This document shows, in pieces, positions 4,073 to 32,166 of a stretch of DNA of 64,000 bases. The stretch spans positions 62,001 through 126,000 of the forward strand of contig JAJXWO010000002.1 in assembly GCA_021781535.1 (NCBI GenBank), written 5' to 3'. The notes under the pieces are model-generated. The model worked only from the letters and a program-made list of their open reading frames with translations, had not been told where the DNA came from and did not search any database. This DNA comes from Deltaproteobacteria bacterium (GTDB lineage: Bacteria; Desulfobacterota; Desulfuromonadia; Geobacterales; Pseudopelobacteraceae). How positions within the stretch are numbered: the first letter of the stretch is position 1; the number at the start of each line of letters is the position of its first letter. Made by a program: the position numbers and the translations under genes.

Positions 4073-5806
4073 ATGAACAAAAAGTGCACAGCATATTCAA
4101 AGATGTGGTTTCTTGCCTTACTCCTCATCACTTTCGTGGCCGGGTGTGCAAGCAATGCACAAGAAATTCCGGTGATTCCGGACACCGTTGCACCGACAGT
4201 CAGTTTCACCGCCCCGGCCAATGGAGCGGTGGCAGTGGCAACCAACAGGAAGGTCTCTGTCGCTTTTAGTGAGGCAATGAACCCCTCGACAATCACAAAA
4301 GACACCTTCCTTGTAACAGACTCTAGCGGAGTCAGCGTGCCAGGAACGGTTTCCCCCTTCGGCACAACGGCGGTATTTACCCCTTCAAGTAATCTTGCGG
4401 TCAACACCCTCTATACGGTTACGGTTTCAAACGGGGTTGAAGACCTGGCAGGAAATACGATGCTTACGGACTATGTCTTCACCTTTACAACAGCGGCAGT
4501 CACAGACAGTACAAGGCCGACGGTAATTGACACTGTTAACGCCGACAACGCTGTCAATGTCGCTACCAACACCAAGGTCGGAGCAACGTTCAGCGAAGTA
4601 ATGGATCCCCTGACAATCACATCGACTACGTTTAAACTTACTCAGGGCGTTAACAATGTTGCAGGTGTTGTAACCTATTCCGGTACTAATGCAGTTTTTA
4701 CTCCATCAAACACACTTGCCGCTGGAACTAAGTATACTGCGACAATAACCACGGGTGCCAAAGATCTGGCCGGCAATGCACTGTTAAGCAACTACGTTTG
4801 GAGCTGGACCACCGCTGCAGCCGCAGACACCACAAGGCCCACCGTGAACCTGGTAAATCCTGCTAACCAGGCTACAAATGTTGTGATAAGCAGCGCTGTC
4901 AACGCAACGTTCAGTGAGGCGATGGATCCTTTAACAATCAGCACAGAAACTTTTACGTTGAAAAATGGCGTAAGTCCGGTTGCTGGAACGGTTGAATATG
5001 TTGCACTGTCCAAGATTGCGACCTTTAAACCAACAACAAATCTTGCAACCGGCACATTATATACTGCCACAATTACAACTGTTGCTTCGGATCTGGCTGG
5101 CAATACACTGGCAGTTGATTATGTGTGGAGCTTTACTACAGATAACGTTGTTGTGCCGCCACCAGTCGCATTGATTAACCTCGGTTCAGTTTCCAGCTTT
5201 GGGATTATGGCAACCTCAGCGATCACGAATACCGGTGCCGCCACCATGGTAAACGGGGACGTTTCGCTTGATCCAGGCACTTCCAACGGTCTGCTGCCGG
5301 TACAGGTGAACGGTACGATACACATTAATGACACCGTGTCTGCACAGGCACGAATCGATCTGCTGGCTGCCTATAATTCAGCTAAAGCGCTGGCTCCAGG
5401 TGTAACAGTTCCTGCTGGTATGGATCTTGGAGCATTTCCTAACGGAGGTCTTCCTGGAGTCCTTCCCCCCGGCACCTATACTTCCGGCAGTACAATGTTG
5501 GTTTCGACACCTCTGACTCTTGACGGAAAGGGCAATCCAAATGCCAGTTGGGTCTTTCAGATAGGTTCATCACTAACTACGACAAATAGTGTTTCACTGA
5601 CTAACGGTGCTCAGGCAAAGAACGTGTACTGGGTTCCAACTGCAAGTGCGACTGTTGGAGTCGGAACAATTTTTAACGGAAACATCATAGCAGGTGTAAG
5701 TGCAACTGGTCAGACCGGAGCCGTGATTAACGGTAGAATTTTGGCCGGTGCAACCAGTCCTGGTACGATTGCTTTGGACACAAATACAGTTAACGTGCCC
5801 CAGTAA
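4073..5806 (+). CDS. Lipoprotein with three SbsA-type Ig-like (Big_5) repeats and C-terminal DUF3494 (ice-binding-like) domain
   Basis: Lipobox FVAGC; three repeats 'PTV..T.P.ngavaVatn.kVsatFSEaMdp.Titt.TFtl'; C-term 'LGSVSSFGIMATSAITNTGAATMVNGDVSLDPGT...WVFQIGSSLTT...AKNVYWVPTASATVGVGTIFNGNIIA...INGRILA' typical of DUF3494. Confidence 0.85.
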   Translation: MNKKCTAYSKMWFLALLLITFVAGCASNAQEIPVIPDTVAPTVSFTAPANGAVAVATNRKVSVAFSEAMNPSTITKDTFLVTDSSGVSVPGTVSPFGTTAVFTPSSNLAVNTLYTVTVSNGVEDLAGNTMLTDYVFTFTTAAVTDSTRPTVIDTVNADNAVNVATNTKVGATFSEVMDPLTITSTTFKLTQGVNNVAGVVTYSGTNAVFTPSNTLAAGTKYTATITTGAKDLAGNALLSNYVWSWTTAAAADTTRPTVNLVNPANQATNVVISSAVNATFSEAMDPLTISTETFTLKNGVSPVAGTVEYVALSKIATFKPTTNLATGTLYTATITTVASDLAGNTLAVDYVWSFTTDNVVVPPPVALINLGSVSSFGIMATSAITNTGAATMVNGDVSLDPGTSNGLLPVQVNGTIHINDTVSAQARIDLLAAYNSAKALAPGVTVPAGMDLGAFPNGGLPGVLPPGTYTSGSTMLVSTPLTLDGKGNPNASWVFQIGSSLTTTNSVSLTNGAQAKNVYWVPTASATVGVGTIFNGNIIAGVSATGQTGAVINGRILAGATSPGTIALDTNTVNVPQ

Positions 5807-7657: not shown

Positions 7658-7948
7658 AAGATGTCCAGGCAAAGTCCGTTGATACAGGGTGTGAGTGAGT
7701 TAACGAAATAAAAAAAATGCGGAGAACTTGTAATTTACTCATAGCACGTTACAATTGTTGCAGGTTTGTTAATGTAAATGGCTAAATTGCCACGGAATGT
7801 ATTTTGATGAAATCTAAAAAGGAGGGGGGGATACATCCGAATAACTATCGAAAGCAAATTGACCTCAGGTAGATGGTCGCACCAATCAGGAGAAGTCATG
7901 CAGTTGTTGTAATTATTTTTATGCCACTATGGAAAAGGAGAAGGACAC

Positions 7949-9322
7949 ATGATTAAGAAAAAAATCGCACTGCTCGTCGCCACGTCGCTGCTGGTTATCG
8001 CCTCCGTTGCCTCTGCTGCCAACAAGGCAGGGACAGTCTCGGTTACGCCGGTTGTCGGTGGATACCTGTTCGACGGCAAACAGCATCTGGATGCAAATGT
8101 GATGTACGGGGCAAGAGTTGGCTACAATTTCACCGATGCACTCGGCATTGAAGCGCTCTTTGATTATTCGCATAACAATGAATCAACACTCGGTCCGAAG
8201 CCGGGTATTTCCATGTACCGTTATGGTGGAGAATTGCTGTACCATTTTATTCCCGACAGCAGATTAGTTCCTTATATTGCCGCTGGTTATGCCGCCGTGA
8301 ATTTTGACGGCAATAATGATGGCATCTCCGACAAGGGGTATAAAAGGACGCGTGGTGCCTTTGATTATGGTGTGGGCGCCAAATTGTTCCTGACCGAAAA
8401 CATTGCCTTGAGGGGGGATGTCCGCCATATTATTTACAAATATGACCGGACCTATAGTAATTTTGAATCTACCGTCGGGGTCTATTTTGCATTCGGCGGT
8501 GCCGAGGCGGCTGTTAAGCCGGTTGAGCCTGTCACTGAGCCCGTCGCCGAGCCTGCACCGGTCGCCAAGCCGGTTGAGCCTCCTATGGATTCTGACAATG
8601 ACGGCGTGATCGATACACTTGACAAGTGCCCGGGCACCCCTGCCGGTGTTGCCGTTGGTGCCGATGGTTGCCCCCTTGATACAGACGGTGACGGTGTTGC
8701 TGATTATCTCGACAAATGTCCCGGCACCCCGGCTGGTGTTGCCGTTGGAACGGATGGCTGCCCACTTGATTCCGACAATGACAGTGTCCCCGATTATCTC
8801 GATAAATGCCCCGGTACACCTGCCGGCGTGAAAGTTGACATAAATGGCTGCCCGCTTGACACCGATGGCGACGGCGTACCCGATTATCTCGATAAATGCC
8901 CCGGCACTCCCGCTGGTGAAAAGGTTAACACGGATGGCTGTCACAAGGTTGCGGCAGAAGCTGCGAAGAAATTCTGCAGCAAGCCGGTTGTGTTGAAAAT
9001 TAATTTTGACACCAACAAGGCTGTTGTTAAACCTCAGTACTATGACGAACTGAAAACCGTTGGCGATTTCCTCACCTATTTCCCTAAGGCCAAGGGCGAA
9101 ATATCGGGTTACACCGACAGCAGCGGTTCCAAGGCAATAAACAAGCCCCTTTCTCAGGATCGTGCTGACAGCGTCAAGATGTTCATCGTTGATACCTTCG
9201 GCATAGATGCCGCTCGTATTGACAGCAAAGGTTATGGCTCCGCAAAACCGGTGGCCAGCAACAAGACCAAGGCCGGCAGAGCTAAAAATCGTCGTATTGA
9301 GGCAAATTTCACCTGCGAGTAG
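7949..9322 (+). CDS. OmpA/OprF-like porin with thrombospondin type-3-like Ca-binding repeats
   Basis: Barrel domain, four 'DxDxDGVxDYLDKCPGTPAGVxVxxxGCPL' repeats, OmpA C-terminal domain. Confidence 0.9.
   Translation: MIKKKIALLVATSLLVIASVASAANKAGTVSVTPVVGGYLFDGKQHLDANVMYGARVGYNFTDALGIEALFDYSHNNESTLGPKPGISMYRYGGELLYHFIPDSRLVPYIAAGYAAVNFDGNNDGISDKGYKRTRGAFDYGVGAKLFLTENIALRGDVRHIIYKYDRTYSNFESTVGVYFAFGGAEAAVKPVEPVTEPVAEPAPVAKPVEPPMDSDNDGVIDTLDKCPGTPAGVAVGADGCPLDTDGDGVADYLDKCPGTPAGVAVGTDGCPLDSDNDSVPDYLDKCPGTPAGVKVDINGCPLDTDGDGVPDYLDKCPGTPAGEKVNTDGCHKVAAEAAKKFCSKPVVLKINFDTNKAVVKPQYYDELKTVGDFLTYFPKAKGEISGYTDSSGSKAINKPLSQDRADSVKMFIVDTFGIDAARIDSKGYGSAKPVASNKTKAGRAKNRRIEANFTCE
8587..8943 (+). repeat. 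Coding tandem repeats (4 x TSP3-like)
   Basis: Repeated DxDNDGVxDxLDKCPGTPAGV units. Confidence 0.85.
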
Positions 9323-23632: not shown

Positions 23633-23719
23633 GCCGAAGTGGTGGAACTGGTAGACACACCATCTTGAGGGGGTGGCGGGCAACAGCCCATGCGAGTTCG
23701 AGTCTCGCCTTCGGCACCA
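23633..23719 (+). tRNA. tRNA-Leu(GAG)
   Basis: GCCGAAG acceptor, D-arm, anticodon stem CCATC-TTGAGGG-GGTGG, variable arm, GTTCGAGTC, encoded CCA. Confidence 0.93.
23703..23719 (+). repeat. att site (left; inside tRNA-Leu 3' end)
   Basis: TCTCGCCTTCGGCACCA, identical to 32150-32166. Confidence 0.88.
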
Positions 23720-23783
23720 GTTGATTCAAATAAGCTAACGATTTAAACTAGTTAGCCGGGTTGTTAAAGTCGCTTTTCAAGTT

Positions 23784-23802
23784 ACGTACAAATTACGTAC
23801 AT
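23784..23802 (+). repeat. Subterminal 19-bp direct repeat, left copy (putative recombinase/excisionase arm site)
   Basis: ACGTACAAATTACGTACAT, identical to 32043-32061; immediately upstream of int. Confidence 0.75.
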
Positions 23803-23818
23803 GAAAGGCGATTTTTTT

Positions 23819-25303
23819 ATGCTCCCAACCTACCTACAGACTACTTCCACCGGATTCTTCTTCAGAATGTATGTTCCCAAGTCACTTCAGCCAATTCTTA
23901 AAAAAACAGAACTCAAACGAGCAATAAGAACCACGAATCGAGCAGTTGCAGAGCGTCAAGCAATCATATATGCTGGCAAGGCGTTAGAGCTTTTCGACAG
24001 TTTGAAGGAGCCGGAATTGACGGATGTCTTATTTTCAACGATAAAAATCGCAAGCCTCAAGCGTTACCCGGACGGCACCGTTGAGATGACTGGACTTGAA
24101 ACTGATCCCAACCACCCTGAAGCAGAAGAAAAAGCATTCAACAACATCATGGAGAAATTTCAATGTGTGCCGGTTGGTGACCCAACAGTTGCAGCAGCAA
24201 CTCCACTTACAGCAGTGCCAGCTATGAGACTATCAGAAGCAGTTAACCTGTTTATTACAGCACGATCAAAAAAAGCGGCGAAGCGAAATACCCTATTTGA
24301 CGAAAAAGCGGCCCGTGTTCCGTTTAAGCTGTTGACCGAATATCTCGGCGAAGATAAGTACATCAGAGAGATAACGCTTGCTGATGCTGAGTTATTCCAG
24401 GAGAAACTACGATTTTTTCCAAGAGTCAGAACAACAAATGCTCGGCTCGGTCTCACGTTTAACCAGCTTATCAGCCTCAAAGAAACTGACACCATCAGTG
24501 AGAATACTCAAGGTCAGCACATCGGAAAATTGTCGGGTTTGTGGAACTGGTTGAATGAAAGCAAAACTCTCTCGCTCACAAACCCGTTTTACGGCCTAGC
24601 TGACAAAAAGATAATGCACCGAGAGTCGCCGATACGAAAGCGTCAGGCGTTTGATGCCACTGATTTGCAAAAGATCTTTGCTCATGGCATCTGGACAGAT
24701 TGCCAGTATAAGTCGAACTGGGAATATTTCCTGGCTCCATTGCTTCTGTACACCGGTGCGCGAGTCAACGAAATTGTGCAGCTTGAGAAAAAAGATATTT
24801 TGACGGTCGACGGTATCCTTTGTATCTCAATCAATGACCTGCCAACGAAAGATGAACCGGATATCGTCTGGGAAGCAGCACCAAAACGGGTTAAAAACTC
24901 ATCGTCACGGCGAGAAATACCGGTACACAGTGCACTTATTAATCTCGGTTTTCTTGATTTTGTAGAAACTATAAAATCCGGTCGGCTGTTTCCAGACATC
25001 AAGCCGATTGTCGGCAAACTAGCGAAGACGCCATGCAGACGATTCAATGAAGACATTCTTGTCGAAGTTGGCGTAAAGATCCAACATCGCAAGACTTTCT
25101 ATTCATTCAGGCATACAACCATGAACACTTTGAAACAGTTAAGAGTCAATCTGGAAGAACGCGGCCAGCTTGCCGGTCATACACAGTCAAAGATTACCAG
25201 TACCTATGGTGATGAATACAGCATAAGTGACATGCAGATACTAGTCGAGCGTCTAAATTTCAGCGCATCAATGCCAGGTGTCAAACCATGGACTCAGGGT
25301 TAA
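23819..25303 (+). CDS. Tyrosine recombinase / phage-type integrase
   Basis: 'LLLYTGARVNEIVQL' (Arg I), 'FRHTTMNTLKQ', 'GQLAGHTQSKITSTYGDEY' (catalytic Tyr); N-terminal 'TGFFFRMYVPKSLQPIL' arm-binding domain. ATG at 23801 or 23819. Confidence 0.93.
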   Translation: MLPTYLQTTSTGFFFRMYVPKSLQPILKKTELKRAIRTTNRAVAERQAIIYAGKALELFDSLKEPELTDVLFSTIKIASLKRYPDGTVEMTGLETDPNHPEAEEKAFNNIMEKFQCVPVGDPTVAAATPLTAVPAMRLSEAVNLFITARSKKAAKRNTLFDEKAARVPFKLLTEYLGEDKYIREITLADAELFQEKLRFFPRVRTTNARLGLTFNQLISLKETDTISENTQGQHIGKLSGLWNWLNESKTLSLTNPFYGLADKKIMHRESPIRKRQAFDATDLQKIFAHGIWTDCQYKSNWEYFLAPLLLYTGARVNEIVQLEKKDILTVDGILCISINDLPTKDEPDIVWEAAPKRVKNSSSRREIPVHSALINLGFLDFVETIKSGRLFPDIKPIVGKLAKTPCRRFNEDILVEVGVKIQHRKTFYSFRHTTMNTLKQLRVNLEERGQLAGHTQSKITSTYGDEYSISDMQILVERLNFSASMPGVKPWTQG

Positions 25304-25342
25304 TCTCAGGATTCACAAGAACCATCGCGACATAGGATACAA

Positions 25343-26869
25343 TCATAACTTCTTAGGTGACGTCTTAGCAGGTACCTGTGTAGCTCGTGCTGAATCAAGC
25401 TGCTCTGGTGTCGTGAGATTGTATGGATTCGGCATACTTTCTGGTGCCGGGGAAGTAACCGGCGGCACAGTAAAAGGCGAGACCGGTTTTTGAACTGCGT
25501 AGAATTTCTTCACATATTCAAGATCAAGCATCGGTTTCTGAGCCGGTTTTACAACCGGGACGGCTACTGGTTCCGGTGCGGTAATAACCGGTTGCTGTTC
25601 AGCCTCAACTTCTCGCAGCTCCTGTCTCGTAGCAAGAAACTCAGTTAACGGCACATACCGAGCATCAGTACCTTTCAGAAACTCAGCTTTCTTCTCAAGA
25701 GAAGCGTGATAGTTACTGACAGCCTCAAAATCTTCATAATCACCATAGACTTGACGTAATTCGGCATTCTTTGCAGATGCCATCAGTCTTTTAGTCTCTG
25801 CCCCAGCAGACTTGTTATCATCATACCGTACCTGAGCCACAAACTGACGCAGTGCCTCTTTAGCTAACGGATTTTGCTCTAGTTTTATTGCTTTTCCAGC
25901 GGCCATATCAGCATGCGACAGCGTCTTGCTCCAGTAACTGACGCGAGCGTTTACCTGTTTATTATAAACGGTTCGTTTTGGACGGTTCGGATCAAGTTTC
26001 TTAGTCGGATCACCAAATACAGTTCCAGTAGCTTTCAGAACCGCCTCATCAACCGACTTCCGCAACTGACCGATACCACCAATATCTAAAATTTCATGCT
26101 CTTTATTCCAAGCACCTAATTCTTTATTCCAGGTGCGATCACAGACCCAACCTTGTAAATGCGGCTCCTTATAGATTTTTTCACCATACTTATCAAGCAT
26201 CAGCACACCAGTAGCCTTATCACGGGCAGGTTTGCCGCGATGAAACGTCAAGACCAGCGGCATATTTTTCGGAAAGCAATCTCTGACAGCAATCACTGCG
26301 GCTTTGATTTTCTCAACGGCATCGGGATCGTCAAGCAGCGATTTATCAAGTTGATGCTGGAAAATCTTGCCGGAAGTGAGACCCGTAGTATTCTCATATT
26401 TTTGCGTCAGCATCAATTCATGCACCAAATTTTGAGCGTGTGAATGTGCCTCATTGCGGCGAATACGACGACTTGGACCGGTGTCATTTACGAATTCTTC
26501 ACGAGCAAGAATCAACTTTTGCTTCGTTCTTTGTTGATAAAATTTGTCTTGTTTAGCCGGTAAATTGGCGTCTCTCTCCGGGAAAATACGAGTTTTCCAT
26601 TCTTCCAGGGACTTCGGAGATATCTTGGCAAATTCAGCTTTTTGATCACTACGCAGCTGTAAGATTGCGGCCTCAAATTGCGGATCATTCATAATTTCGG
26701 TCGTACAAATTAACCCAGTTTCTTGCGGCCTGAACAAATACGAAATCCAATTTGAAGCGACAGCACGTTTCCTTGTGGCCTCATTCGGGGAGTTCTTGCC
26801 AGCCGGTGAAGGTGTCGAATAAGTCATAACTTCCATGATATTGCCTCCATGTTCTTGCGCGTCGTACAC
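25343..26869 (-). CDS. Element-encoded protein with HUQ-type motif (putative HUH-superfamily Rep/relaxase-like)
   Basis: 508 aa; 'MPLVLTFHRGK...KIYKEPHLQGWVCDRTWNK' resembles motifs I/II of HUH (HUQ) endonucleases, downstream 'SYWSK' YxxK; Pro-rich tail. Alternative start MEVMTYSTP. Confidence 0.55.
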   Translation of the reverse strand: MYDAQEHGGNIMEVMTYSTPSPAGKNSPNEATRKRAVASNWISYLFRPQETGLICTTEIMNDPQFEAAILQLRSDQKAEFAKISPKSLEEWKTRIFPERDANLPAKQDKFYQQRTKQKLILAREEFVNDTGPSRRIRRNEAHSHAQNLVHELMLTQKYENTTGLTSGKIFQHQLDKSLLDDPDAVEKIKAAVIAVRDCFPKNMPLVLTFHRGKPARDKATGVLMLDKYGEKIYKEPHLQGWVCDRTWNKELGAWNKEHEILDIGGIGQLRKSVDEAVLKATGTVFGDPTKKLDPNRPKRTVYNKQVNARVSYWSKTLSHADMAAGKAIKLEQNPLAKEALRQFVAQVRYDDNKSAGAETKRLMASAKNAELRQVYGDYEDFEAVSNYHASLEKKAEFLKGTDARYVPLTEFLATRQELREVEAEQQPVITAPEPVAVPVVKPAQKPMLDLEYVKKFYAVQKPVSPFTVPPVTSPAPESMPNPYNLTTPEQLDSARATQVPAKTSPKKL

Positions 26870-26934
26870 CCGCTCGAATACTCATAGAAAATAAGCAGTC
26901 AATCCCATATCACTCTTCTTAGTGTGTGTTTTGT

Positions 26935-27145
26935 GCGTCGTGAAAGTGAATCGTCTGCAAAATTTCCCGTCAAGTTCCATAATATTAAAGTATCCGTGAA
27001 AGTCGTCGAGAGTCGTGAAATCTAAAAATAATTTCTGGCGCCTCTACCTAGGTATATCCGCAGGCGAATATACCTAGTGCTTGGAGGCAAAGTCATAAAA
27101 GCAAAATGCATAAGCAGAACCTGGTCCTCGTGAATTAACGTGAAA
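26935..27145. repeat. Cluster of five CGTGAA repeats (iteron-like) in intergenic region
   Basis: CGTGAA at 26939, 26995, 27014, 27129, 27139, all in the same orientation. Confidence 0.55.
27040..27088. repeat. Nested inverted repeat
   Basis: GCCTC...CTAGGTATAT-ccgcaggcga-ATATACCTAG...GAGGC. Confidence 0.75.
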
Positions 27146-27187
27146 CAAAATGCATCTACGGTTACCGGGACCTTTTAGACCTTCGGC

Positions 27188-27215
27188 CTCACCGGGCGTT
27201 TAAATGCCCGGTGAG
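27188..27215. terminator. 10-bp perfect stem-loop just downstream of the 27230-27979 gene
   Basis: CTCACCGGGC-GTTTAAAT-GCCCGGTGAG; no U-tract, so terminator function uncertain. Confidence 0.5.
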
Positions 27216-27229
27216 AATCAGCCCCGTGG

Positions 27230-27979
27230 TCACTTTATTACGGCATCTTTCAACGCAAGTTTCATCGATTTGGAGTTTGCAACGTCATCTGTAGTAAGAT
27301 CCCCGGCGACGTCTTTCGGTGTCAAAATCTCTTGTTTCCAAAGCTGATACGACATCGGTAGCATCATGGCCCGGAATTCGGGGAGCGGCACAGTTGAGAA
27401 AACTTGATGTGTTGACATGGCGTACATAATTGAAAAACTTGTCATCGGTTCCACTTGAAAAGCGGCTGATGCCTCAGCCATCGTTGGCGTATAAGACGGA
27501 GTTTTCAGACGTCGAAGAAGTATCTCTTCTGGAAAAAATCGGACACGTTCAACCGGAACAAAAAGCTTATGGAAAGCTTGAAATTCTTCCATCGATGCCA
27601 CAAATATTTCGATCCGAACTTTCTTATAAGCATACTGGAAATAATCAGCGACATGATCCACGGTTCGTTCATTAAAAGCGTTGGTCGGATCGGCATCCGG
27701 TCGGTTAAGAATCTCAGAAACCAACACAGCGGCGAATTCTTTAGAGACATCTTGTTCAGCAATCAAAGCACTTGAAATCAATGGTAGAGCAGCAGAAATT
27801 AGAAATCCCGGTCTCTCGGCATCATGTGTCTTATCAAACTGATAACCAATCTTGGCCAGCTCTGCTCGGCTCAGATAATCGGATAGAATAAGCGGCGGTA
27901 AGCCACCAGTATTGACGTTAGTTGCTTCAACTTGGGTTCTAACGTCTTTCGTCGGGTCAATCATGGTCGTTAACAGCAT
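27230..27979 (-). CDS. Hypothetical element protein (249 aa)
   Basis: Long ORF on same strand as neighbours, coding-like composition; no recognised family. Confidence 0.65.
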   Translation of the reverse strand: MLLTTMIDPTKDVRTQVEATNVNTGGLPPLILSDYLSRAELAKIGYQFDKTHDAERPGFLISAALPLISSALIAEQDVSKEFAAVLVSEILNRPDADPTNAFNERTVDHVADYFQYAYKKVRIEIFVASMEEFQAFHKLFVPVERVRFFPEEILLRRLKTPSYTPTMAEASAAFQVEPMTSFSIMYAMSTHQVFSTVPLPEFRAMMLPMSYQLWKQEILTPKDVAGDLTTDDVANSKSMKLALKDAVIK

Positions 27980-28090
27980 GGTAGTCTCCTAGTCGTTTGA
28001 TTTTCAGCACAGCCACAAAAAGAGTAGTCCGAGGCTTGAGTCTTGGTACTCTGTGACGTTGTCATATTCCGTCTCCTTGTCTTTATAAGT

Positions 28091-28342
28091 TCACATCCCG
28101 ATCCGTAAAAACATCTGGTCGATTTCATCAGCGTCAACATCCATCTTCGGAAGCAACTGCTCATAAACCCGACGCAAATCATCAAGCCGGTCATTCAGCA
28201 ACTCAGTACAAAGCTGTGTCTCACGCTTTGCAGCAGCAGCAGACAACCGACTCACAAACTCAAGATTCTCTTTAGAAACAAAGGCTCGAAACGACCCAAC
28301 ACCTCGATCCCCTACAGCCAAGCCACCATAATTCCCGCGCAT
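28091..28342 (-). CDS. Hypothetical small element protein (83 aa)
   Basis: Strong RBS (GGAGGctttATG) and amphipathic helical composition; in operon-like position. Confidence 0.6.
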   Translation of the reverse strand: MRGNYGGLAVGDRGVGSFRAFVSKENLEFVSRLSAAAAKRETQLCTELLNDRLDDLRRVYEQLLPKMDVDADEIDQMFLRIGM

Positions 28343-28742
28343 AAAGCCTCCGTGAAGTGAACTGTCCTGATAGATATCTATACGTGAGAGTCCAATAAAC
28401 GTTCACTTCGTTGGCGAAAATTCCATATCTCGAAAACGATGCCCACTGACGTGGGCAGACATACACAATCGACGCGTCGGCCAGGTCTTCAATCTTCTCA
28501 TACCACGATGCGTGGCACGTCGCGGCGGTGTGCTTGGTCGAGACGATCAGACACAAACTCTCTTCTAGTGGCGGTTCTGAGAATCAGTTTGTAAGTGATG
28601 AAATGATGGTATGGCGTTGCTGGTGGCGTGATCAGTAAGAAGTGTGTTGTCAGTAACCGGGACGGCAACCTTCAAAACAAGCTGCCCTGAAGTTCGCAGA
28701 TTTTAATTGTTTTTAAAAGCTGTTCTAATATATACATAATAA

Positions 28743-28901
28743 ATGCTTCGGTTATTTCTGCAGATGTTTATGGGTATTTGCCTACTTTCCGGTTGTGCGG
28801 AAAAATATGTACTGGTACCAGTAACTCATCCGCTACCAGCAGAGTCGCCAGGTATATTTGAAGCTTTCGGATTGCCAAGCTCAGGGACAGTTTTGAAATG
28901 A
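28743..28901 (+). CDS. Small lipoprotein (52 aa), possibly spanin/lysis-lipoprotein-like
   Basis: MLRLFLQMFMGICLLSGCAEKYVLVPVTHPLPAESPGIFEAFGLPSSGTVLK*; LSG-C lipobox; below ORF-track length cutoff. Confidence 0.5.
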   Translation: MLRLFLQMFMGICLLSGCAEKYVLVPVTHPLPAESPGIFEAFGLPSSGTVLK

Positions 28902-29497
28902 TCTCGTTAACAAAACAACTCCATTGTAAAAAGACGAAACATTATATAACTCTTTATCGAAGGTTATGGGGAGGTTTAGAGGGGTAAGGTTTAAAAATGG
29001 ATCGACTGACTCCGGGGCTCAAGTATCCGGGACTCCGGTTCTAGTCTCTACATAAATGTGTCGAAGGATTCCGGTATCGTCTGGGAGCAAGAAGCTTGAA
29101 TATTGGTTACTGATCGTCTTGCTCCGCTGTACCTTCGCGAGAGCGTTGGAACAACGATCTTGTGCGGCAGCTTCCATACGGTATTACAAAAAACAAACCA
29201 AGAAAACACCAGCCCGTGCACCCCGTGGTTCATACCACCATATCACTAAGTCCAAATCCTCGGCCCACCTCCAAGGAGAGCGTACGTGCTTGCTTAGTAC
29301 GATCTTCTTGACGTGATATGTGGGATGAATCACACTACCACGCCAAAAAAGATTCATCACACAAACACCAATACAAACATACAATCACCAGAATCATCCC
29401 AGTACGTCTCAAATCACTTCATGTATATGCTACTATCAATAATTTCTTCCGCAAGCCCCTATGGTCTCATACACTAACACCTGCACCCTCGCGCGGC

Positions 29498-29510
29498 GCG
29501 GCTTCGCCGC
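29498..29510. other. GC-rich hairpin immediately 3' of primase-like gene
   Basis: GCGGC-TTC-GCCGC. Confidence 0.4.
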
Positions 29511-29521
29511 TTCGTTGACAA

Positions 29522-30943
29522 TCACATGCAACGGTTGGTTAAGAAGTGCCCTGCTGACGATTTTGACACACCATTCTGAGTCAGCAACTGGTATATCTCT
29601 TTTCGTCCAACTTCCTCAATGCACTCATCAGGGCTCAGCGCCTGCCCAAATCCGTCCGTCAGGGTCGCGGCATTAGTAAACCTTACATTAGATAGCGTTA
29701 CATTCAGCTGGATCACTTTTGAGAATTCGTTAGCAAGGTAATGCTGGTCACGGCAAAGAATTCCGGTTTCTTCAAAATATTGTAAAAATTTCAAATACGT
29801 CTTATCTGAACACCATTCTATTAATTTGCCGCTATGAACATTCAGCCGCTGCTTCTTGTGGGCATTGAAATATGAAAGCAACCGGCAGAAGAACTTAAAT
29901 CGTGGAATATTGCCGCCGCATACTTTTGCAGCAGTGGCAATATCATCCTTGGTCAACCAGCCGTAATAATTATTGTGTGTTGTGGCTGGATACTGGCCGT
30001 AATCTTCAAACGTACTCCAAATGTAACCAACTAATGCTTCATGTTCACGGCGTACCTGCTGCTCCGTTCGATAATCACCGCGATTTATTGCATCAGCATC
30101 TTTACTAAAACCATTTGTCTGGTTACGAACCCAGTTCATCAATTCATCTGTTGCCTGCTCTGGAGTCAAATTCAGCCGCCATAGCCAATGTGCAACTTTA
30201 CGTTGCGAATGGTATCTGGTTTCCGATGATGCCTGCAAACCGTACATATATAAATCTGCACCCTCCTTCATGGCCCCCTTCGTCGGCATCGGCAATGTAC
30301 CTGTTGATAATTTCCCAGCTAGCCTGGCTGCATGTCGAGTTGCAGTTGCAAAGGACTTCAGATCTAATGGCTGCAAATTGTTAAAGACTTCCAGTTTATC
30401 TTCAAGCGTAGTTAATTGATTACCAACAAACCGGCAGGACGGATGAAACGGTGCGCGAATAACACGATTATCCTGCGGATAAAGATCAATTTCAGTCAGG
30501 TTTTTCATTATCCTCATCGATGCCGATAACTGCTTGACCTGCGGCCCAAGAATATCATGTAACAACCGGACAGTTGCTGGCTTACCATCATACTCAGGTT
30601 TGAACAGTAAGTGATACGACCCCGGTGATGTTTCATACACCATTGAATCGAGATTGCCGCCAATATGAAAATTATTACGGATGCCATCCAGCAGTAAGCT
30701 GGAGTTCAGATCATCTACATCAAGAACACCATATCCAGGATACCACTTCGATAGAGTCCCCAGCATACTTTCACCATGCAGGTGTGCTTGTATATCATCA
30801 TCACAAATCGGCGTATCAACAGTTCGCCAATCAGTATCTTTAACGCCATGTCTCGGAGTGCGCTGGATAAATATATTAGCGTAGGAATTTAAATCTTCGT
30901 AGAAGAATCTCTCACTGCGACTTTCGATTATATCTTGAATCAT
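29522..30943 (-). CDS. Putative archaeo-eukaryotic-type primase (AEP superfamily) replication protein
   Basis: 473 aa with ordered triad: 'GYGVLDVDDL' (DxD), 'ETSPGSYHLLFKP' (sxH), 'LTEIDLYPQDNRVIRAPFHPSC' (hD); C-terminal helical region. Confidence 0.65.
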   Translation of the reverse strand: MIQDIIESRSERFFYEDLNSYANIFIQRTPRHGVKDTDWRTVDTPICDDDIQAHLHGESMLGTLSKWYPGYGVLDVDDLNSSLLLDGIRNNFHIGGNLDSMVYETSPGSYHLLFKPEYDGKPATVRLLHDILGPQVKQLSASMRIMKNLTEIDLYPQDNRVIRAPFHPSCRFVGNQLTTLEDKLEVFNNLQPLDLKSFATATRHAARLAGKLSTGTLPMPTKGAMKEGADLYMYGLQASSETRYHSQRKVAHWLWRLNLTPEQATDELMNWVRNQTNGFSKDADAINRGDYRTEQQVRREHEALVGYIWSTFEDYGQYPATTHNNYYGWLTKDDIATAAKVCGGNIPRFKFFCRLLSYFNAHKKQRLNVHSGKLIEWCSDKTYLKFLQYFEETGILCRDQHYLANEFSKVIQLNVTLSNVRFTNAATLTDGFGQALSPDECIEEVGRKEIYQLLTQNGVSKSSAGHFLTNRCM

Positions 30944-31126
30944 GGCACGGCTCCAGAATAGTCGTGTAAGGATGTACCGAGGACGTGGCTACCAACCATG
31001 TCCTTGGCCTTTTTTGCAGCTCTGAATAGAAAGTATCCGCGAAACTCCACTTGAAGACGAAAAATAATGCAACAACGGCCGGATCAGTAAAGACCCGGCC
31101 GTTATCGTCAACGCCAGCAACAGACC

Positions 31127-31513
31127 TTACATCCGTTTCTCAGCTGGCTTAGCATTGCGCTGCGTTGCAATCGGCCGGACAGCGACACCCTTAAATGGCG
31201 GGTTGCCGAGCAAGCCTTTACCATCGCGCAGATCTTCTTGAAGATCATCTGAAACAACTGTGACCTCAATAAGATCACCTTCTGTAACGTCATCACCCAG
31301 CAGCGGAGTCAAAGTCGAAACCGCAGTTTTAGTCAGTAAAATACCCCGTAACGGTCTGTAGCCTTTCGCAGACTTGGCACCCTGCTCACCAACCGCCTCA
31401 ACGGCAATGTACACAGTCCCTATGGATGACGGATCTTTAATCTTACGCAAAAAACCGTCAATAAGCGCAAACCCAGACTGCAACTCTTGCTTCTCTTCTT
31501 CAACTTTACTCAT
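31127..31513 (-). CDS. Hypothetical element protein (128 aa; possible OB-fold/ssDNA-binding-like)
   Basis: Beta-rich 'IGTVYIAVEAVGEQ...YRPLRGILLTKTAVSTLTPLLGDDVTEGDLIEVTVVSDD'; RBS GGGGAGGAAAcgaatcATG. Confidence 0.55.
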   Translation of the reverse strand: MSKVEEEKQELQSGFALIDGFLRKIKDPSSIGTVYIAVEAVGEQGAKSAKGYRPLRGILLTKTAVSTLTPLLGDDVTEGDLIEVTVVSDDLQEDLRDGKGLLGNPPFKGVAVRPIATQRNAKPAEKRM

Positions 31514-32042
31514 GATTCGTTTCCTCCCCGAAGTTAGTATTAATTCTGACCTGGTCTAGCTTTGTGCTAGGCTGTTACTAATGGGGGCGGAATTGCCCGA
31601 GGCCACATGGCGTCTTGCGTGAACAGATTGTTTTTTTAGGTTCCGGGTCATCACCACCTCTCGTCCTGAATTTTACATCTGTTTTCATAGTGCAATGCAG
31701 AGGCCAAGTTTCAGTTCTTGTAAGCCAAGTATCTGTTTTTAAAAAATATTTGCATAAGTAAAAAATATTTTATTTTTCGAGATTCAAAACGGGTGTTTTG
31801 CGGAGAATTGCGTTGGCATGACTTTTGGCAGGTGTAAATATTTGTCATAACGAGCTGACAATTTACGGCAGTTAACTTCTGGCGGTAATAGCGATTGTCT
31901 GGAGAAAACAGCAGTGACTTCTTGTTGTTATATTCATAGTTCAGACAAAACCAGCAGTTTTCTTCAGTCCCTGCGTATCCACAAAAACCGCTCTGGTATA
32001 TATTTTCACTGTCTTTTAAGATTAGAATTGGATAGGATGATC

Positions 32043-32061
32043 ACGTACAAATTACGTACAT
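32043..32061 (+). repeat. Subterminal 19-bp direct repeat, right copy
   Basis: ACGTACAAATTACGTACAT, followed by a third ACGTAC at 32065-32070. Confidence 0.75.
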
Positions 32062-32149
32062 AAAACGTACAAGATCAAGTGCGGAAGCGTATTTGAAAAG
32101 CGTAACAATAACAGCATATTGAGTCAGTGCATAAGCCCTGGGTACCAAT

Positions 32150-32166
32150 TCTCGCCTTCGGCACCA
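32150..32166 (+). repeat. att site (right)
   Basis: TCTCGCCTTCGGCACCA, identical to 23703-23719. Confidence 0.88.

Follow-up and report, generated by a model that had tools for sequence, protein, structure and literature searches.

Mobilizable elements are thought to be widespread and are detected mainly through known relaxase models. As a kind, integrative mobilizable elements (IMEs) are already known (PMC5704250, PMC11389934), and canonical members of the iMOB type combine an integrase and att sites with their own relaxase and oriT and sometimes a replication gene, with no mating pore or coupling protein. In the window, by which we mean the whole 64,000-nucleotide stretch of DNA that was analysed, we found an element with an integrase and att repeats, a probable relaxase that no family model recognises, an oriT located in silico in 9/9 testable loci, and no mating-pore or coupling genes. 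It differs from canonical iMOB elements in this library-unknown relaxase and in its RepB-like primase module, and so far it is confined to one Geobacteraceae genus. With a probability of about 0.82, we interpret it as a compact IME of the iMOB type, with P508 as relaxase, an oriT at 27036-27077, replication through P473 and helper-dependent transfer.

In IncQ/RSF1010 plasmids (MOBQ MobA-RepB), a MobA-type relaxase and a RepB-type primase likewise share one small replicon. In contrast to these plasmids, the window element is integrated in a tRNA gene, its putative relaxase and primase are encoded separately, neither a RepA helicase nor a RepC initiator is recognised among its ORFs, and P508 carries HUQ rather than HUH and has no significant sequence similarity to MobA. 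What is new is P508, which none of the tested family models covers and which lacks both the sequence similarity and the HUH of MOBQ relaxases, although its oriT is MOBQ-like; the P508 family was not found in a literature search of partial coverage.

Insertion site, ends and gene content

The element resides in a 3.8-Mb draft genome (G000) at a tRNA-Leu(gag) gene with anticodon GAG (23633-23719, plus strand), the 3' end of which forms the attL core (23703-23719, plus strand). As an earlier note on this DNA had described, this 17-bp sequence, TCTCGCCTTCGGCACCA, is repeated exactly and in direct orientation as the attR core at 32150-32166, with a spacing of 8447 bp; by our own estimate, ~5e-7 17-mer matches to the 3' end of the tRNA would be expected by chance in 9 kb. 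Just inside either end we observe an exact 19-bp repeat, ACGTACAAATTACGTACAT (23784-23802 and 32043-32061), which the note had likewise reported and which is a candidate integrase arm site, with an additional half-site directly inside attR. These subterminal repeats were not seen in other elements. In genome G103 (locus L092), the tRNA-Leu is followed directly by DNA resembling the right flank of the window element (77% over 106 bp, E 2e-9), and the 17-bp sequence is present there once. We identify this locus as an empty site, the lack of which in related genomes would, according to the note, have counted against its reading. The duplicated tRNA end, the end repeats and the empty site therefore indicate that the element boundaries are real. 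Separately, in L091 of G088 (7866-8597), the 3' part of tRNA-Leu(gag) is repeated ~650 bp downstream, and thus another element seems to use the same site.

Next to attL lies a tyrosine integrase of 500 aa (23801-25303, plus strand, start possibly 23819), matching PF00589 (E 2.5e-7), DUF6538 (1.2e-9) and phrog_1 (6.3e-27) and sharing 54.5% identity with the integrase that adjoins tRNA-Leu(cag) in L018. The ORFs of 508, 249, 83, 473 and 128 aa are all on the minus strand, so that both the position of the integrase and the divergence of the other main genes from it are as first described. None of these five ORFs has a family match above the cut-off in Pfam, NCBIfam or PHROG, and none matches capsid, portal, terminase or type IV secretion families, which the note had also failed to recognise; mating-pore and coupling-protein (T4CP) genes are absent among the element ORFs. 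No T4CP was found anywhere in G000, and just 7/39 genomes of the genus have one; the helper would therefore be elsewhere in the population, or was missed. Three near-identical AAGTATCCGxGA boxes, possible regulator sites, are also present in non-coding DNA of the element, at window positions 26988, 29021 and 31031.

P508 and its origin of transfer

P508 (25343-26869, minus strand) is very probably a divergent conjugative relaxase, as judged from its modelled fold, its invariant residues and the linkage of a relative to a T4CP gene. Upon aligning 10 family members, we find that Y44 (within YLxRxxETG), H210 and H237-x-Q239 are invariant, with the third His of the HUH motif being Q. The AlphaFold model has a mean pLDDT of 63 (medium confidence), with residues 41-250 mostly at 65-92, and its best 24 chains in a Foldseek search of the PDB are all conjugative relaxases (TraI, TrwC), at probabilities of up to 0.99 and E-values of just ~4e-3 to 5e-2. 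The viral fold library returned no match to the model above a probability of 0.16. These best matches belong to the MOBF relaxases, but the TM-scores are low, and the oriT of the P508 family resembles that of MOBQ instead; the MOBQ relaxase NES (4ht4) ranks 26 among the PDB matches, with a TMt of 0.45. Among MOBQ features, an N-terminal Tyr is present (the invariant Y44, for which catalysis is predicted) and the three-His HUH is absent. Membership of MOBQ by profile was rejected, the hhalign score against MOBQ relaxases falling within the shuffled range and no MobA/MobL family being matched.

The relative linked to a T4CP gene is found in L023, where the genes of P508, P249 and a T4CP (PF02534, E 8.9e-45) stand in a row. 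P249 (27230-27979, minus strand) accompanies P508, being found at 13 loci in 7 genomes, and is a conserved relaxase partner, probably a relaxosome or adaptor protein. Adjoining the three genes of L023, at L023:7607-10639, is a gene for a 1010-aa protein that belongs to no known family and is a candidate for a transfer function in a helper element.

Between P249 and P508, on the minus strand, we assign 27036-27077 as the oriT of the window element, from sequence comparison. It consists of a 14-bp inverted repeat followed by GTAGA and GGCGCCAGAAATT, with the layout CTAGGTATATTCGC-ct-GCGGATATACCTAG-gtaga-GGCGCCAGAAATT running from 27077 to 27036 and beyond. Upstream of P508 genes in general, an inverted repeat is followed after 4-7 nt by GGYGCCA, and a scan found one copy per locus in 9/9 P508 loci with enough upstream sequence; the arms vary between elements but remain complementary. 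The motif was derived by eye, and the fair tests are therefore L003, a locus unused in defining it, and the background counts. Within the L003 element there is a single copy, whereas in background DNA (475 kb strand-bases) 0/109 occurrences of the GGYGCCA motif have such an inverted repeat, and in Markov sequence the count is 0. The pattern GTWRNGGCGCCAGWA gave 9 matches genome-wide versus 7 in the reversed control; the 3 matches outside known elements were rejected as further oriTs, lacking the inverted repeat and being attributable to chance.

The RSF1010 substrate is a hairpin followed by the nic region GGTAAGTGCG/CCCT (PMC4814116), and in the window element the inverted repeat is followed by GTAGAGGCGCCAG; motif and spacing in the P508 family are similar to those of the MOBQ oriT (inverted repeat then TAAGTGCG/CC). 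Since nic lies 3' of the hairpin there, the anatomy of the oriT matches that of a relaxase substrate, and the likeness to the RSF1010 nic region suggests that P508 probably cleaves at GCG/CC within GGCGCCA.

Replication modules and relatives

The earlier note had proposed an AEP-like primase, and P473 (29522-30943, minus strand) is at motif level probably a RepB-like (AEP) primase. Its DVDD and YETSPGSYH motifs, candidates for the acidic motif I and the ETSPxxY motif II of RepB/AEP primases, align with RepB primases, IncQ1 RepB having VETSPKNY, and its hhalign score against them is 24.7, above 60/60 shuffles (maximum 21.2); an IncQ1 relative was used in place of RSF1010. The motifs are thus suggestive of the proposed primase, with no family model agreeing: the RepB_primase model of Pfam matches neither P473 nor its relative in L003, and the structure model of P473, built from a 2-row alignment, has a pLDDT of 36.

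L003, in genome G089, is an 8.4-kb element in tRNA-Phe, with a 21-bp copy of the tRNA-Phe end at either boundary (3089 and 11476). It shares with the window element P473 (43% identity), P128 (31127-31513, minus strand; about 41% identical, order kept), which would be a partner of P473 and possibly a DNA-binding replication protein, and ~560 bp of non-coding DNA adjoining P473 (28935-29510 in the window; 80% DNA identity). This stretch shows higher conservation than the proteins and its indels break the reading frame, which would suit a replication origin or priming site, and we consider it a candidate for either; it is absent from phages, plasmids and the remaining members of the order. A structured RNA in this region was unconvincing, with no Rfam match and z-scores of -0.5 to -2.2. 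L003 carries an oriT of the same kind as the window element and no recognised relaxase, and from its sequence it may be moved in trans by P508-type relaxases. It thereby resembles iOriT elements such as MGIVflInd1 (PMC5704250), which are integrated with a matching oriT, but the relaxase that probably helps it would come from a sibling small element and not from an ICE. Within L003:3089-17114 the 21-bp tRNA-Phe 3' end occurs three times (3089, 11476 and 17094), and the third copy suggests that a further 5.6-kb element, one lacking an integrase, follows the first in tandem.

Upon extending the comparison, we find 10 full-length P508 members, including the window copy, in five genomes of a single genus, on contigs of uncultured Geobacteraceae that come in part from lake metagenomes. 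No P508 relatives were found in the rest of the order or in a 395-genome sample of the phylum, nor in phage, plasmid or viral-contig collections. The P508 copies of G109 lie on different contigs of a draft assembly contaminated at 7%, and are therefore perhaps not all from one organism. The usual order in relatives is an RNA gene, the integrase, and then a convergent 109-125-aa gene, P249 and P508; in the window the positions of P249 and P508 are swapped, and the small helical protein P83 (83 aa; 28091-28342, minus strand) corresponds in position, on a weak alignment, to the 109-125-aa gene that comes after P249. The adjoining RNA genes are tRNA-Leu(cag) in L018, tRNA-Phe in L003 and L088, tRNA-Met in L089 and tmRNA in L017. 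Replication genes vary as well: L018 has a Rep_1 replicase, L015 encodes a RepB_primase-like protein with DUF927, and both the window element and L003 carry P473 and P128.

Several relatives show features of their own. In L016 (1946-4963), a 1005-aa protein near the P508 relaxase has no Pfam match and is a possible DNA polymerase, to judge from an exonuclease-like motif picked out by eye. At L087:6252-8929, the closest P249 homologue (51%) is preceded by a 171-aa ORF without a relaxase domain and a DinB-type polymerase gene, and we class L087 as a decayed element. In L017, the integrase is flanked by two full-length tmRNA genes (2486-2889 and 4761-5155) that encode different tag peptides; one of them seems to be element-borne, and the element adjoins the 3' end of the host tmRNA.

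Mechanism, competing readings and meaning

As we read the element, the integrase recombines it into the 3' end of tRNA-Leu(gag), the tRNA being regenerated as seen in the sequence, and would excise it as a circle. The circle could then be copied by a plasmid-like module comprising the RepB-type primase P473, P128 and the adjacent non-coding origin. For transfer, the fold, invariant residues and oriT suggest that P508 would bind the inverted repeat at 27036-27077, nick in the adjacent GGCGCCA, probably at GCG/CC by analogy with RSF1010, and remain attached via Tyr44; P249 would assist, and the strand would be led through the coupling protein and mating pore of another element.

P508 could instead be a rolling-circle replication initiator (CRESS/HUQ Rep-like). 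The inverted repeat would then serve as its double-strand origin, and the element would be a plasmid that integrates but is not transferred by conjugation. In favour of this reading, CRESS Reps typically carry HUQ, and no T4CP was detected in the host. A paper on Reps discusses HUQ (PMC9973303), and certain IME relaxases also act as replication initiators (PMC5704250). However, the invariant Tyr is N-terminal to HUQ, and a Tyr before the histidines is the relaxase order, from which the Rep order differs (PMC4814116); the conserved motif is 3' of the hairpin, outside its loop, and L018 has a separate Rep_1 replicase. On these three grounds, what the earlier note had called an HUQ Rep/relaxase-like protein is best read as a relaxase. 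The relaxase fold matches, the relative adjoining a T4CP in L023 and the presence of the site without P508 in L003 also count against an initiator, which we regard as improbable. A phage satellite or decayed prophage, with integrase and primase and packaged by a helper phage, would share some of these features, as phage satellites, too, integrate in tRNA genes and carry integrases and primase-like genes. Yet the integrase is the sole match to phage or satellite families, no structural, packaging or phage-derived genes were found, morphogenesis homologues of P473 and P508 among them, and no relatives occur in viral contigs or phage collections. With a relaxase, an oriT and T4CP-linked relatives also speaking against it, the satellite reading was rejected as highly implausible. 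The earlier proposal of an integrative mobilisable or replicating element, with a prophage unlikely, is supported by the relatives, which comprise 10 full copies of the relaxase and 13 loci with P249, and by the relaxase fold, the relaxase-P249-T4CP cluster, the oriT and the empty site. An immobile remnant island would accord with the missing helper T4CP in G000 and with decayed relatives such as L087, which lacks the relaxase domain; against this, no damage is seen in the main ORFs, the two att cores or the inverted repeat of the oriT, and we regard a remnant as improbable.

Beyond the iMOB reading of the window element, the chances appear evenly balanced that P508 is the founder of a new relaxase family, with an active site of two His plus Gln, that serves small integrative elements of one Geobacteraceae genus. 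Such elements would have a common oriT code, swapped replication modules (P473 primase, Rep_1, RepB/DUF927 and a possible DNA polymerase) and oriT-only siblings, such as L003, that exploit as parasites a relaxase encoded by another small element. The P508 family is invisible to known relaxase models and was recognised via gene neighbourhood, fold and oriT. A P508 profile, together with the code of inverted repeat and GGYGCCA, offers a direct handle on such elements in uncultured bacteria, and the sharing of relaxases among small elements via common oriTs becomes testable.
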